IMG/VR virus record: IMGVR_UViG_3300033153_007767
Span: 1 to 28,123 of that record
Reading direction: 5' to 3' (one strand)
Length of the DNA: 28,123 bases
Source of the DNA: a virus
Made by a program: the position numbers and the translations under genes. The notes under the pieces were generated by a model. That model was not told the origin of the DNA. It saw only the letters and a program-made list of their open reading frames with translations, and did no database searches. Position 1 is the first letter of the stretch. The number at the start of each line of letters is the position of its first letter. Below, one piece after another: positions 67 to 28,123 of the stretch.

Positions 67-108
67 CATATAAATGTTTCTATTGATAGGTTGGACCAAC
101 GGTCCAAC
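67..108 (-). promoter_or_regulatory. Promoter with GTTGGACC palindrome, left-edge gene
   Basis: On the - strand the palindrome GTTGGACC-N3-GGTCCAAC (90-108) is followed 15 bp later by a TATA box (CATTTATATG, 67-76). The predicted transcript start near 45 leaves a short leader before the ATG at 17. Spacing and half-sites match the promoters at 659-701, 881-922 and 1249-1289. Confidence 0.7.
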
Positions 109-109
109 T

Positions 110-158
110 TAGTTTCTCAAAAGAGAAAGAAAGAAGAAGGGGATTTTTATTTATCCCC
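110..158 (-). terminator. Hairpin plus pyrimidine tract after the 156-residue gene
   Basis: On the - strand a GGGGAT/ATCCCC stem (139-144 with 153-158, 8-nt loop) overlaps the stop codon at 151-153. It is followed by a long T/C-rich run down to about 110. The layout resembles an intrinsic terminator, and a similar stem occurs at 1888-1919. Confidence 0.5.
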
Positions 159-621
159 AACGATTAATTTCCTTTTGATAATTTTCGTTGATTTTGTCGA
201 TTTGTGTTTGTGTTGGTGGTTTTCCGTAAAGTTGTTTTGGTGGGTTTTTCATTCGTTCTTTTAGTGTTTTAAGTGATAATTTTATTGCCTGTTCTTTTTT
301 TGGTTTTGTGTATGAATTTGCGATTTTCTCCAAAATTAAATGTTTGTTTTCATAATTTAATCTTGGGTCATATTTGGTTTCAGATTGAATATTAAATCTC
401 GTCATAAAATCTTTTATGCCGATAAATTTATATTCAAATACATTCGTTCCAAATTGTTTTTTTAGTTGTGCGATTGTCATTTTTTCGAGTATTGGTTTAA
501 TATCTTTTATGCTGTGGGGTTTTGTTTGTGGTTGTGCTTTTGGTTGTTTTTCATCTGCTTTATTTTCGGACATAGATTTAATTACGCCCTCGATAATTTT
601 TTTCATTTCACTTTCTTTCAT
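151..621 (-). CDS. Hypothetical basic protein, 156 aa
   Basis: I do not recognise this protein. The chosen start (MKESEMKK, ATG at 619-621) has an AGAGGT Shine-Dalgarno site about eight bases upstream and lies downstream of the TATA box at 660-668. The longer open frame back to 705 would be translated from promoter DNA and is rejected. The N-terminal third (about residues 18-40) is Lys/Gln/Pro-rich and probably disordered. The rest is Lys-rich and predicted mainly helical, without membrane segments or signal peptide. The gene is monocistronic, with its own palindrome-containing promoter and its own terminator hairpin. A small regulatory or nucleic-acid-binding protein is possible, but no motif shows it. 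Confidence 0.65.
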   Translation of the reverse strand: MKESEMKKIIEGVIKSMSENKADEKQPKAQPQTKPHSIKDIKPILEKMTIAQLKKQFGTNVFEYKFIGIKDFMTRFNIQSETKYDPRLNYENKHLILEKIANSYTKPKKEQAIKLSLKTLKERMKNPPKQLYGKPPTQTQIDKINENYQKEINRWG

Positions 622-658
622 TTTTTGATTACCTCTATTATTAGGTAATACGAGTGTA

Positions 659-701
659 GTATATATAGTTTGGGGTTGCTGGGTTGGACCGTGGGTCCAA
701 C
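659..701 (-). promoter_or_regulatory. Promoter with GTTGGACC palindrome, 156-aa gene
   Basis: The palindrome at 683-701 (8-bp arms, 3-bp spacer) is followed on the - strand 15 bp later by the TATA box CTATATATAC (659-668). The expected start of transcription is near 638, giving a short leader that carries the AGAGGT site before the ATG at 621. Confidence 0.72.
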
Positions 702-712
702 TCATCTCTCCA

Positions 713-727
713 TCTAAAAAAATTAGA
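713..727 (-). terminator. Short hairpin with T run after the 44-aa gene
   Basis: On the - strand the sequence TCTAA-T5-TTAGA overlaps the stop codon (723-725). The run of seven T residues (716-722) is the type of oligo-T signal that stops archaeal RNA polymerase. It separates the gene from the next promoter. Confidence 0.4.
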
Positions 728-857
728 CTAAACCAGATAGTGGATTTTTCTCACCACAATAACATTTTCCGTCTGCCTCAACTGCATTTCCACATTCACA
801 AGTGTAGAAACCTTTTTCCTCGCATTCTCTTAATGCCGTGTGTATTGATACTACCAT
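723..857 (-). CDS. Micro zinc-ribbon protein, 44 aa, probably leaderless
   Basis: The product is a 44-residue protein with a C-X-C pair (Cys20, Cys22) and a second C-X-C pair (Cys32, Cys34), plus Cys12, which together look like a single zinc knuckle. The ATG (855-857) is chosen because the TATA box at 881-889 lies about 27 bp upstream, so the transcript should begin at or next to the start codon. No Shine-Dalgarno site is present, as expected of a leaderless mRNA. The longer frame to 971 would run through the promoter and palindrome and is rejected. Small zinc proteins of this kind often act as transcription or protein-interaction modules in archaeal viruses; that role is inferred. Confidence 0.6.
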   Translation of the reverse strand: MVVSIHTALRECEEKGFYTCECGNAVEADGKCYCGEKNPLSGLV

Positions 858-880
858 AATATAAGATATATCATATTGAG

Positions 881-922
881 TATATAAAGATTGTGGTTGG
901 TAGGTTGGACCAGGGGTCCAAC
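881..922 (-). promoter_or_regulatory. Promoter with GTTGGACC palindrome, 44-aa gene
   Basis: The palindrome at 904-922 (3-bp spacer) is followed on the - strand 15 bp later by the TATA box CTTTATATA (881-889). The predicted transcript start coincides with the ATG at 857. Confidence 0.72.
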
Positions 923-952
923 TCAATGATCCAAAAAATAAAGAAAGAATGT

Positions 953-1213
953 TTATGGGAATGTCATACAAGGATCTATTAATATATCAAAGTTACAAGT
1001 AGTGTCATTGTATTGCACTCGTATCATTCCTGATGATATAAACATTCCATTTTTTAATTTGTTTTCTGCTTGTAGCGATCCGATTTTATTTGATATAGAA
1101 TAAAATACCTCATCAGCATTTATAAATATTCCAGGATTTAATTCCTCGAGTATTTTAAATATATATTTTGCTTTTTCACGCATATTTGATTGATTTGTTA
1201 TTCTTTCTATCAT
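953..1213 (-). CDS. Hypothetical protein, 86 aa
   Basis: I do not recognise this protein. The ATG at 1211-1213 (MIERITNQ) is preceded by a strong GAGGTGAT Shine-Dalgarno site with about six bases of spacing. A GTG nine bases further upstream lies inside that site and is unlikely to be the start. The N-terminal half (MREKAKYIFKILEEL) is predicted helical and the C-terminal half beta-rich, suggesting a compact alpha/beta domain. There is no signal peptide or membrane segment. It has its own palindrome-containing promoter, and a T-rich tract follows the stop codon. It probably belongs to the same early regulon as its neighbours. Confidence 0.65.
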   Translation of the reverse strand: MIERITNQSNMREKAKYIFKILEELNPGIFINADEVFYSISNKIGSLQAENKLKNGMFISSGMIRVQYNDTTCNFDILIDPCMTFP

Positions 1214-1248
1214 TTTTATCACCTCTATTACTATGTATCAGGTATCAG

Positions 1249-1289
1249 TATATAAAGGTTTGTATTCTAAGGTTGGACCAGGGTCCAAC
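1249..1289 (-). promoter_or_regulatory. Promoter with GTTGGACC palindrome, 86-aa gene
   Basis: The palindrome at 1272-1289 (2-bp spacer) is followed on the - strand 15 bp later by the TATA box CTTTATATA (1249-1257). Transcription should begin near 1227, leaving a leader that contains the GAGGTGAT site. Confidence 0.72.
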
Positions 1290-1331: not shown

Positions 1332-1424
1332 TTACTCGACCCAATCACCACATACTGGACAAACATCATCATCTATTGGGATGACGATCGTGCCACAGTT
1401 ATCACATTCAATAGGTTCTGTCAT
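1332..1424 (-). CDS. Micro zinc ribbon, 30 aa, leaderless
   Basis: The gene encodes a 30-residue protein that is little more than one zinc ribbon: Cys7-X2-Cys10 and Cys22-X2-Cys25, each pair followed by a small turn residue, with an acidic loop between. The TATA box at 1447-1456 is centred about 27 bp upstream of the ATG, so the mRNA should be leaderless; no Shine-Dalgarno site is present. Unlike the three genes to its left, no GTTGGACC palindrome sits at the standard position. Isolated zinc ribbons of this size may bind DNA or polymerase subunits. The function is inferred from the fold only. Confidence 0.6.
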   Translation of the reverse strand: MTEPIECDNCGTIVIPIDDDVCPVCGDWVE

Positions 1425-1557: not shown

Positions 1558-1653
1558 TTATTTATATAAATCGTTATATATACATATAGAGGGCATATTA
1601 ATCATTCTTATGTGGTATGTTACCTCTCTCTCTTTATGTGTGCTATACGCCAT
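1558..1653 (-). CDS. Possible 31-aa peptide
   Basis: A short frame starting MAYSTHKE has a well-spaced GAGGT Shine-Dalgarno site five bases before the ATG and an AT-rich TATA-like box (CATTTAAATAC on the - strand, near 1686-1696) about 37 bp upstream. The predicted transcript start would fall just before the Shine-Dalgarno site. The peptide resembles nothing I know and its C-terminal half is unremarkable. The signals are suggestive but the length is within chance. Confidence 0.3.
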   Translation of the reverse strand: MAYSTHKEREVTYHIRMINMPSICIYNDLYK

Positions 1654-1725: not shown

Positions 1726-1844
1726 GGTCCAACTCTTTATCGTGTGCCGTGCTAACACGTGTAGGGTCCAACCTATGATTGAGGTCCAACCCATCGGTGA
1801 GTTGGACCGGTGGTGTCACTGAGTTGGACCCGCGAGAGTCCAAC
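1726..1844. repeat. Cluster of six GTTGGACC half-sites
   Basis: GGTCCAAC occurs at 1726-1733, 1765-1772 and 1783-1790; GTTGGACC at 1801-1808 and 1823-1830; and a one-mismatch copy (AGTCCAAC) at 1837-1844. The third and fourth copies form an inverted pair with a 10-bp spacer in the opposite polarity to the promoter palindromes. The last two form a promoter-like palindrome with a 6-bp spacer. No TATA box lies 15 bp from either pair. The same protein that binds the four promoters could bind here, for example as origin iterons or as a switch region. Confidence 0.65.
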
Positions 1845-3383: not shown

Positions 3384-3400
3384 ACTTTCCATATATGGAA
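3384..3400. promoter_or_regulatory. Palindrome TTCCATATATGGAA, copy 1
   Basis: A perfect 14-bp palindrome, with ACT in front also conserved, so 17 bp are identical with the copy at 3590-3606. It lies about 75 bp upstream of the TATA box at 3474. It could be an upstream operator that cooperates with copy 2. Confidence 0.6.
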
Positions 3401-3577
3401 CGACGTGCTCTATAATATTATAACGGAAACCCGAATCTAAACGCCTCTTATTCTAAATATGACACACAAGTAGTATATAAAGCTTTCGGTGGCCTCTCGG
3501 AGGGATTTATAAATCACCAAAATAAAGTTACCGGGTAATACGTATATGAGGAAGACTAAAATATATATACAAAAGTA

Positions 3578-3606
3578 TATGTATATAATACTTTCCATAT
3601 ATGGAA
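3578..3606 (+). promoter_or_regulatory. Late-operon promoter with overlapping palindrome, copy 2
   Basis: A TATA box (TATATAATA, 3582-3590) is followed immediately by the second 17-bp ACTTTCCATATATGGAA element (3590-3606). The palindrome fills the space between the TATA box and the expected transcript start near 3612. A protein bound there would block polymerase recruitment, so repression is the simplest guess. The transcript would have a leader of about 65 nt before the gene at 3677. Confidence 0.5.
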
Positions 3607-3676
3607 ATTAGATTATTTCAGGAGAGCCAAGAATGGCGGGTTAGGGGTAGGCAAATAAAATAAAAATGTGATAAAT

Positions 3677-9837: not shown

Positions 9838-10260
9838 ATGGAAGAATCTGAACATTTAAAGAAATTAGAAGAGATTATTCCAAGATTGAAAGTAAAAGAT
9901 GAACATAATTGTGAAGTTACATACGAATCAGATGGAGAAGGAACCTTCATTGGGTTTGGATTACATAAAGAAAAGGGTGTAGCAGTGCAACGAGTGTTTA
10001 TGAGTAAAGGGACTAATATCCCAGAACATCAACATTCAGAGAATGAATATGCATTGTGCTATTCTGGAAAATTTGAATTAATAACAGAAGGAAATAATGT
10101 TATGGTAAATGGAACTAAATCAGAATCTCCACATATATTAACTCCAGGCGATGCAGCATTTTTCCCTCCTGATACTAAACATTCAGCAATTATACTGAAA
10201 GATACATGGATAGTGTGTGTAACAATACCAGCTTCCGAGGAGTATCCAGATGCCAAGTAA
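9838..10260 (+). CDS. Cupin-domain metal-binding protein
   Basis: A 140-residue single-domain cupin. Motif 1 reads GTNIPEHQHSENEYALCYSG, with His64, His66 and Glu70 as metal ligands. Motif 2 reads LTPGDAAFFPPDTKHSAI, with His115 as the last ligand. The N-terminal helix (residues 1-20) is charged. An AAGGTGAT sequence precedes the ATG, and the gene's last 11 bp overlap the next gene. Cupins are diverse, ranging from sugar-binding to dioxygenase and transcription-factor domains. No substrate is implied here. Its place among head genes suggests a virion-associated or host-metabolism role. The domain is secure; the function is open. Confidence 0.85.
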   Translation: MEESEHLKKLEEIIPRLKVKDEHNCEVTYESDGEGTFIGFGLHKEKGVAVQRVFMSKGTNIPEHQHSENEYALCYSGKFELITEGNNVMVNGTKSESPHILTPGDAAFFPPDTKHSAIILKDTWIVCVTIPASEEYPDAK

Positions 10261-25923: not shown

Positions 25924-28123
25924 TGCCTATTCCTAATTATATAGTCTTTGGTTTAATCAAAGATTCGGACTCTAATGCAGTAGATGGAGCTACAGTGTAT
26001 GCTATCGATAGGACTACTGGTGATATAAATGTAACAACACTAACAAATGCAAGTGGTGGTTATCAAATAGATTTATCAACATTGGCCAGTGTTGCTGATG
26101 ATGATTCTATAGTTATAGCATGTACTTTTAATCATGAATCAATGCACTCACCATTTACATTAGACATAAGTTCTCCATTCAAGAAAATCGATATGACGCT
26201 CTCTTGGGAAGACTATAAGAATGATTATAGCACAGATGCGTTATTAGTAAAATATGATATACCAAATAGATTTGATATAGATACAATATTAAAATCTACA
26301 GAATTAAATAAATATGATTTGGAAGCGTTCTTAAGAAAAACTGAACATAGTGAGTATTCATTAGATGTTCTTGCGCAGATGTTTGATATAAATAGTGAAT
26401 TCTTAATTAATCTTCTATTGAAATTCATTGAAGATAGATCATTAAATTTAGATATTCTAGCGCAAAAATTAGATGTCGAAGAAGAATATAATTTAGATAT
26501 ATCTACATTAATGAAAGATATTGAAATAAATAAGAAAATAGATATATTAGTTAACATTCTATTAAAAAATAATTATGATTTAGATGTGTTATTACAGGAT
26601 ACATATAGTAATGACATGGATATTAATGCATTATTATTAAAAAATCTTGGTACTAGTTCATTGAATGATATATTATTAGAAAAATATGATGTAGAGATAA
26701 AATTTGTTCTCAAAACATTATTAACTATCTTAAATTATAATAAATTTAATATTGATACACTAATAAAGAGACTTGATGTAGAAAAGTACTTTTTAATAGA
26801 TACCGCTTTAGAATTATATGATATTGAAGTTGATCAGAAAATAGATGTATTAGTTGATATATTATTAAAGAATAACTATGATTTAGATATAATGCTAAGA
26901 AAATCAGTTGATAGTAAATTTGATTTAGATTCATTATTACTAAAAACTGTTGGTACAATACATGTAAATGATATATTATTACATAAGTTTAATGTGGATA
27001 CCTCTTATATATTAAGAACTCTATTGACAATTTTAAATACAAATCAATTTAATATTGATGCATTATTAAAAAAGATGGAAGTAGAAGAACAATATATAAA
27101 AGATATATTATTGGAATTACATGATATAAAAACTAAATATAATATAGATACATTAGTTAATATATTATTAAAAAATGAATATGATTTCGATACTCTATTA
27201 AGAAAATCTGTAGACAGTAAGTTTGATTTAGATTCACTACTATTCAAAACTGTTGGGACAACATCAATTAATGATATATTACTTGAGAAACATGATGTAG
27301 AAACTAAATATAAACTTGTAGCATTTCTAAATGTATTAAATCGGCGTGGATTTAATCTAGATTTATTAATTAAACGTATGGATGTTGAAGAAGAATATTC
27401 CATTGATATTAGCTTAGAATTAAGAGATATTGAGACAAGAAAGAATTTAGATGTATTATTAAATATTTTAACAAGTAATAATTACGATATTGATACATTA
27501 TTACGGAAGTCTGTTAAGAGTGAGTTTGATTTGGATTCTCTATTATTTAAAACTGTTGGAACCACATCAGTTAATGACATATTACTTCATAAGAATGATA
27601 TCGAAACTAAATATATACTTAGAACACTATTAACTACATTAAATACTAATGGATTTAGTATAGATTCATTAATTAAGAATATGGATATAGAGGAAAAATA
27701 TTCACTTGATATTGCTTTGGAATTAAGAGATATTGAAATAAGGAAGAATTTAGATACGTTATTATCACTTTTACTAAAGAATAATTATGATATTGATATA
27801 TTACTACATAAGTCTGTTAAGACAAATTTCGATTTAGATTCTTTATTATTCAAAACTGTTGGAACATCATCATTAAATGATATCTTATTAGAGAAACATG
27901 ATATTGAAACAAATTTAATAATTGATACATTATTAGGTATGATTAATGTAAATGTATTAGATTTAGATTTACTTATTAGTAATATGAATATAAAAAATAA
28001 ATTCTTAATTGATGTTTCATTAGAGAAACAAGATATAGAAACTTCTAAAAAGTTAGATATATTATTAAAATATGTTTCATTAGTTAAATCTGGATTTGAT
28101 TCATTATTACATATGTTTAATGT
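25923..28123 (+). CDS. Repeat protein with N-terminal Ig-like domain, open at right edge
   Basis: An incomplete gene (733 codons visible, no stop before the edge). Its ATG shares a base with the stop of the giant gene (TAATG). Residues 1-95 form a carboxypeptidase-regulatory-like beta sandwich (GLIKDSDSNAVDGATVYAID, then NASGGYQIDLSTL). From about residue 105 on, the sequence consists of units of the form (L/I)D.LL.K.D(I/V)E..Y in blocks of 14-15 residues, seven blocks making a 101-residue superunit. Five close superunits and one diverged one are visible. The repeat part is Leu/Ile/Asp/Lys-rich, has few aromatic or Cys residues, and is predicted helical. A long fibre or a tape-measure-like rod is possible. 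Confidence 0.85.
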   Translation, partial: MPIPNYIVFGLIKDSDSNAVDGATVYAIDRTTGDINVTTLTNASGGYQIDLSTLASVADDDSIVIACTFNHESMHSPFTLDISSPFKKIDMTLSWEDYKNDYSTDALLVKYDIPNRFDIDTILKSTELNKYDLEAFLRKTEHSEYSLDVLAQMFDINSEFLINLLLKFIEDRSLNLDILAQKLDVEEEYNLDISTLMKDIEINKKIDILVNILLKNNYDLDVLLQDTYSNDMDINALLLKNLGTSSLNDILLEKYDVEIKFVLKTLLTILNYNKFNIDTLIKRLDVEKYFLIDTALELYDIEVDQKIDVLVDILLKNNYDLDIMLRKSVDSKFDLDSLLLKTVGTIHVNDILLHKFNVDTSYILRTLLTILNTNQFNIDALLKKMEVEEQYIKDILLELHDIKTKYNIDTLVNILLKNEYDFDTLLRKSVDSKFDLDSLLFKTVGTTSINDILLEKHDVETKYKLVAFLNVLNRRGFNLDLLIKRMDVEEEYSIDISLELRDIETRKNLDVLLNILTSNNYDIDTLLRKSVKSEFDLDSLLFKTVGTTSVNDILLHKNDIETKYILRTLLTTLNTNGFSIDSLIKNMDIEEKYSLDIALELRDIEIRKNLDTLLSLLLKNNYDIDILLHKSVKTNFDLDSLLFKTVGTSSLNDILLEKHDIETNLIIDTLLGMINVNVLDLDLLISNMNIKNKFLIDVSLEKQDIETSKKLDILLKYVSLVKSGFDSLLHMFN
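26290..28123 (+). repeat. Six 303-bp coding repeats
   Basis: An anchor (codons for VG in KTVGT) recurs at 26646, 26949, 27252, 27555 and 27858, each exactly 303 bp apart. A degenerate copy (KTEHS) sits at 26343, again 303 bp earlier. Each unit encodes 101 residues, subdivided into seven 14-15-residue blocks. The last unit runs to the window edge and is partly degenerate. DNA similarity between neighbouring units is high but not perfect, consistent with older duplications under selection on the protein pattern. Confidence 0.85.

Follow-up and report, generated by a model that had tools for sequence, protein, structure and literature searches.

Why should one perfect inverted repeat recur at one fixed distance from four TATA boxes in the DNA of an uncultivated archaeal tailed virus? 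The question is raised by the left end of the window, i.e., the whole stretch of DNA analysed here, a 28,123-base IMG/VR record classed as linear, a class that often denotes a fragment. A sequence-only reading of this DNA had proposed that the palindrome GTTGGACC-N2/3-GGTCCAAC marks the promoters of four adjacent genes and is recognized by a regulator. Pattern search of the window indeed recovered all four palindromes as exact matches at the coordinates given for them. The fixed gap claimed in the same reading was also found, each palindrome being separated from a TATA box by exactly 15 bp, and all four genes run leftward.

67-74, minus strand: TATA box 1, TTTATATG, 15 bp from palindrome 1
90-108, minus strand: putative operator palindrome 1 (N3), exact match; promoter of a leftward gene that starts at about 15 and runs off the window
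660-667, minus strand: TATA box 2, TATATATA, 15 bp from palindrome 2
683-701, minus strand: putative operator palindrome 2 (N3), exact match; promoter of gene 151-621
881-888, minus strand: TATA box 3, TTTATATA, 15 bp from palindrome 3; ATG 23 bp downstream
904-922, minus strand: putative operator palindrome 3 (N3), exact match; promoter of gene 723-857
1249-1256, minus strand: TATA box 4, TTTATATA, 15 bp from palindrome 4
1272-1289, minus strand: putative operator palindrome 4 (N2), exact match; promoter of gene 953-1213

Palindromes, half-sites and core promoters

The N3 palindromes read GTTGGACC-AAC/GTG/AGG-GGTCCAAC, and the N2 palindrome reads GTTGGACC-AG-GGTCCAAC. In dinucleotide shuffles of the window, the N3 pattern never occurred, even with up to three mismatches, and the N2 pattern occurred 0.04 times on average. 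The repeat can be extended to TRR-GTTGGACC-N2/3-GGTCCAAC-YYA, and TRR flanks most of the half-sites; the base just outside the half-site is G on the TATA-proximal side and A on the distal side of all four palindromes. On the minus strand, each promoter consists of the palindrome, 15 bp, the TATA box, and then a start codon 23-51 bp further on, with the dyad-symmetric site directly upstream of the BRE/TATA in every case. The spacer and TATA sequences on this strand are CTATCAATAGAAACA-TTTATATG and CCAGCAACCCCAAAC-TATATATA in promoters 1 and 2, and CTACCAACCACAATC-TTTATATA and CTTAGAATACAAACC-TTTATATA in promoters 3 and 4; no other TATA 8-mer of the tested types was found within 60 bp on the same side of the palindromes. 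If the palindromes were free to lie at any position from the TATA box to the stop codon of the upstream gene, the chance of the same gap at all four would be about 6e-6, a value that assumes four independent promoters. It is to be noted that the upstream sequences are not otherwise unrelated, as had been thought: with the palindrome and TATA box counted in, the second to fourth 71-nt units share 61-75% identity with the first, and part of the likeness of the promoters may therefore reflect common descent. At the N2 promoter, the 15-bp distance to the TATA box is kept by the proximal half, and the distal half is displaced by 1 bp; since only the distal half moves, the locked element is the TATA-proximal half-site and not the dyad centre.

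The core promoters were also inspected. BRE positions -3 and -4 from the TATA box carry A in all four spacers, as is expected of a BRE, and position -6 carries G in one of the four; the TATA boxes are near a consensus that may not be that of the host. Judging from these elements, an activator may not be required at the four promoters. The gene starts show either a Shine-Dalgarno-like GAGG/GGAG motif or a leaderless arrangement, and the transcript from TATA box 3 would probably be leaderless.

Counted singly, exact half-sites numbered 13 in the window, against 0.3 expected from shuffled windows, and all 13 are noncoding (by our own gene calls, about 91% of the window is coding and about 9% noncoding). 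Numerous palindromes inside genes had been named beforehand as a sign that would speak against a regulon, and within the window there were none. Five exact half-sites and a degenerate one form a cluster that was absent from the sequence-only reading.

1726-1844, both strands: six clustered half-sites, some direct and some inverted, at unequal intervals
1726-1733, 1765-1772 and 1783-1790, minus strand: exact half-sites of the cluster
1801-1808 and 1823-1830, plus strand: exact half-sites of the cluster
1837-1844, minus strand: degenerate half-site of the cluster, one mismatch

The strand-folding z-score of the cluster is -3.5. To the right of position 1830 the window holds no exact half-site, and the promoters of the structural genes on that side are thus without one. 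Given the N2/N3 spacer and the disorder of the cluster, the half-sites may be usable singly, which would be unusual for a rigid dimer.

Outside its own record, the exact palindrome was matched three times in IMG/VR, on unrelated contigs; two matches were in GC-rich DNA (63-67%) and one (L007) was a hairpin with a TTC loop, and all were judged to be due to chance. A search of 84,980 bacterial and archaeal genomes for the palindrome together with a TATA box retrieved one match, in Legionella, also judged to be chance; there is, therefore, no sign of a host regulon.

The genes at the left end are as follows.

151-621, minus strand: gene 2, basic protein of 156 aa, pI 9.8, of a divergent family; behind palindrome 2
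723-857, minus strand: gene 3, 44 aa, Cys-rich (zinc-ribbon-like); behind palindrome 3
953-1213, minus strand: gene 4, 86 aa, no family match; behind palindrome 4
1332-1424, minus strand: gene 5, 30 aa, zinc-ribbon-like; TATA-like box at about 1446-1453, without palindrome
1558-1653, minus strand: possible ORF of 31 aa downstream of the half-site cluster, coding status uncertain; TATA-like sequence at 1686-1693

Genes 2-4 had no convincing match in Pfam or PHROG, and neither a known anti-CRISPR nor an Aca8 gene was recognised here; anti-defence proteins are fast-evolving. The operator appears to be selective, since gene 5 has a TATA-like box yet no palindrome.

The operator reading and its alternatives

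We propose, with a probability of roughly 0.5, that the palindrome serves a small viral regulon as its operator, at which a dimeric regulator sits upstream of the BRE/TATA and most likely activates transcription. A sequence-specific protein, most likely viral, would bind as a dimer to the two GTTGGACC half-sites; its TATA-proximal subunit would be fixed at the 15-bp distance upstream of the TATA box, immediately beyond the BRE, where it would most likely help TFB/TBP to bind, so that the small accessory or early genes of this leftward block would be switched on together. The regulator may itself be the product of gene 151-621, in which case the circuit would be autoregulatory. The notion of a protein-bound operator, taken over from the sequence-only reading, agrees with the location of the sites, their fixed proximal spacing, their dyad symmetry, the real-looking promoters, and the absence of genic copies. 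The preference of that reading for an activator over a repressor stands on less firm ground, as it derives from the general rule for upstream binding and is weakened by the near-consensus TATA boxes and the A at -3/-4 of the BREs. Archaeal activators usually bind upstream of the BRE/TATA and recruit TBP or TFB (PMC5937170, PMC6737238), and archaeal repressors usually cover the promoter, occlude TBP/TFB, or block RNA polymerase (PMC5937170, PMC5569661). Activation is favoured because the near edge of the palindrome is 15 bp from the TATA box, outside the BRE; the effect could also be repression or modulation, since the core promoters do not look weak.

In a less probable but serious alternative, the palindrome is the operator of a repressor or autorepressor, a dimeric viral protein that would shut down early promoters of high strength, in the way suggested for Aca-like proteins; the cluster at 1726-1844 would then perhaps be a high-affinity nucleation site. 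Core promoters so near the consensus are in keeping with this, as is the finding that the promoters of anti-defence genes in archaeal viruses have sequences in common, specific to each virus and thought to be under Aca-type regulation (PMC11065993), and gene 151-621 and its relatives do lie behind such sites. However, the site in the window is upstream of the BRE, whereas the inferred repressor sites of SMV2 overlap it (PMC11065993), and the occlusion of TBP/TFB or RNA polymerase described for archaeal repressors (PMC5937170, PMC5569661) also weighs against repression here. It seems unlikely that the half-sites primarily serve a DNA-maintenance protein, as iteron- or centromere-like elements of an origin, partition or packaging site whose location at promoters is secondary. 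The six half-sites of mixed orientation at 1726-1844, with their folding score, would suit such a protein, and related viruses have dense repeats in the same region; nonetheless, an exact 15-bp distance to the TATA box at four sites is neither needed for nor explained by this role, and the operator region has no recognised gene for replication or partition.

Less likely still, one promoter was copied as a cassette and the constant spacing was inherited rather than selected. This would account for the likeness of the three 71-nt units to the first copy, but the perfect 8-bp arms have been kept while the spacer, the N2/N3 core and the flanks diverged around them, so that the arms seem to be maintained by selection; moreover, the genes downstream of the four promoters are not alike. 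Promoter duplication and operator function are compatible. The idea that the upstream transcript carries the palindrome as a 3'-terminal RNA hairpin, serving as a terminator or processing site, appears very improbable to us, even though the palindromes are perfect inverted repeats between genes and the unrelated contig L007 has the same arms around its TTC loop, as in a UUCG hairpin. In all four cases, an oligo-T or pyrimidine run lies between the stop codon and the palindrome (on the transcribed strand, 6-8 T in three cases and 25 pyrimidines in the fourth), and the upstream transcript therefore probably ends before the palindrome. A T-run after the palindrome is absent, and CTATCA.., CCAGCA.., CTACCA.. 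and CTTAGA.. follow instead; the distance from stop codon to palindrome varies (21-42 nt) where that to the TATA box is constant, and no match was found in Rfam.

Related viruses and a candidate regulator

The window encodes TerL, a portal protein (PHROG E = 1e-27) and an HK97-type major capsid protein, the nearest named relatives of which are those of haloarchaeal tailed viruses, at about 25% identity. Its structural gene block also contains a cupin-domain protein at 9838-10260 (Pfam Cupin_2, E = 7e-9) and tandem pairs of similar, apparently duplicated genes (16110-16592/16598-17065 and 13409-13690/13691-13969), and a long repetitive open frame with repeats of about 250-300 nt occupies 25924-28123 and runs off the right end. 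Relatives of the TerL were found on 14 IMG/VR contigs (37-65% identity, up to 155 kb), and the palindrome is absent from these. A TerL profile search of the genome collection found no provirus, and two large relatives had no tRNA genes that could serve as a host clue.

Four of the TerL relatives, two of which are one virus, and one contig found by its repeats have GC-rich intergenic motifs of their own, mostly beside the terminase genes: GTGGGACC/GGTCCCAC in G001/G002, GTGGGAC in G003, GTGGGGCG in G004 (16 copies vs 0.01 expected), and GGGGGTCC in G009. The GTGGGACC of G001/G002 differs from GTTGGACC by one mismatch (p of about 0.01), and is the sole relative motif closer than chance often gives; the likeness of the others, at 2-3 mismatches, was judged to be no evidence. 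In the related virus L012, GTGGGACC is enriched upstream of TATA boxes, and the nearest half-site is always GGTCCCAC, in the same orientation as in the window, with a gap that is not constant (10-50 bp at those promoters that lie closest to a site). Several repeat-carrying relatives also contain a second motif, TGCTAACAYGTAGCAYG. In L012 (1600-8000), L013 (5140-7120) and L040 (1970-3960), hundreds of intergenic bases are built from CRTGCTAACAYG/TAGCAYG units, which often abut TATA boxes, e.g., TGTCACGCAAA-STATATA; in the same intergenic DNA, GTGGGACC...GGTCCCAC occur as inverted pairs with separations from tens of bp up to about 125 bp.

Another promoter-like element, (AG)TATATAAAGnTTTCGGTGGCCTCTCGGAGGGA, or CTCCGAGAG - ACCGAAAGC - TTTATATA on the minus strand, is conserved across the virus group upstream of a small-terminase-like gene, and similar TATA-plus-TTCGG pieces occur in other L012 promoters.

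Window 3468-3510; L015 8572-8614; L012 8182-8203: second promoter-like element
L008 429-468; L050 5265-5302; L009 1095-1126: second promoter-like element
Window, about 3388-3400 and about 3594-3608; L009 1202-1217: TTCCATATATGGAA palindromes, just before the small-terminase-like gene

The TTCCATATATGGAA palindromes are followed by a block, TCAGGAG..GC.AAG..TGGCGGGT, common to the window and L009, and together they may serve in packaging or act as a regulatory block.

None of the window's proteins was recognised as a regulator by a DNA-binding fold. The small zinc proteins, which the sequence-only reading had put forward for this role, gained no support and were dropped for their size (44 and 30 aa) and, by inspection, their acidity. 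The 156-aa basic protein of gene 151-621 is the best candidate in the window, a lead with about one chance in four of being correct. Its homologues in G001/G002, G003 and G004 are 22-30% identical, and the relatives have a pI of 9.4-9.7. When the collection was scanned with TGCTAACAYGTAGCAYG alone, two new contigs were retrieved, G009 and G010; G009 encodes a homologue (E = 5e-37), and none was found in G010 (24 kb). Whole-record searches of G005, G006, G007 and G012 found neither a homologue nor an exact TGCTAACAYGTAGCAYG, and no comparable repeat was seen in the parts of these records that were read. All five viruses with a member of the family have promoter-region repeats upstream of the gene, 55-475 bp from its start, these five cases having been chosen partly for their repeats. 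Single relatives of gene 151-621, used as queries for further carriers, retrieved no new contigs. The arrangement resembles that of rudiviruses, in which the Aca8 gene sits behind a shared sequence (PMC11065993). A second small protein (MTKKEVK.. start), apparently common to two repeat-carrying viruses, is encoded at 6644-6919 of L013 and 3398-3681 of L040, also behind a repeat array.

The protein of gene 151-621 had no sequence match in PDB. Its AF2 model (pLDDT 83) is all-helical and matched no PDB chain at Z >= 5; the best rows, designed helical proteins and 14-3-3, fell below this value and are not meaningful. The model retrieved nothing from BFVD at E <= 0.001, and part 34-85 alone (pLDDT 74) had no match at Z >= 2. 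A wider and rather doubtful extrapolation is a fast-evolving operator code, in which each virus of a group of archaeal tailed viruses would have its own GC-rich half-site at the promoters of one and the same accessory region, beside the terminase genes, read by this new basic all-helical family of DNA-binding proteins. If true, such a code would allow related viruses to keep separate regulatory circuits.

Known systems and significance

The palindrome shares with operators of the TFB-RF1/Tar/Ptr2 type a dyad site upstream of the BRE/TATA and a conserved distance, in four of four promoters. TFB-RF1 (PF1088) of Pyrococcus/Thermococcus likewise has a palindrome at a conserved distance upstream of the BRE/TATA in several target promoters, including that of its own operon (PMC5937170). 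It differs in its motif, TCTGAANTTCAGA, in being cellular rather than viral, and in acting on weak BREs, unlike the BRE and TATA elements of the window, which do not look conspicuously weak. Tar (TK0271) of Thermococcus kodakarensis, an activator by in vitro transcription, recognizes TGGACA-N8-TGTCCA upstream of the BRE/TATA (PMC6737238); the TGGAC/GTCCA core is common to both, but the Tar spacer is 8 rather than 2-3, and its targets are metabolic operons. Neither a TFB-RF1-like protein nor a Tar homologue was recognised in the window.

Among viruses, the anti-defence or early promoters of archaeal viruses offer a similar case, in which small single genes share a regulatory sequence around the TATA/BRE that differs between viruses, with a putative regulator gene behind it as well (PMC11065993); these viruses are mainly of Sulfolobales/Thermoprotei, and the inverted repeats of SMV2 overlap the BRE. 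In the tailed archaeal virus HF2, intergenic repeats carry the TATA promoters of early and middle genes (PMC8707807), but they are of 58 bp and 29 bp, have other motifs, and are conserved in sequence in related viruses, whereas our palindrome is absent from the TerL relatives and the repeat-carrying ones have other motifs. Mycobacteriophage stoperators are many short sites for one phage regulator across the genome (PMC9283540); as described there they are asymmetric and monomer-bound, in contrast to the promoter sites of the window, which are palindromes fixed to TATA boxes.

The arrangement itself is already known from TFB-RF1, Tar and the shared promoters of archaeal viruses, and the motif and the gene 151-621 family were not found in the literature that was searched. 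Operators of archaeal tailed viruses have, to our knowledge, rarely been described, and almost never outside haloarchaeal viruses. With a fixed distance between palindrome and TATA box at four promoters, recruitment-type activation could readily be tested in a virus. The proposed operator, moreover, marks the small nameless genes behind it as co-regulated; early or anti-defence roles may hence be sought among them, and the finding points to one protein family, that of gene 151-621, as the possible regulator.
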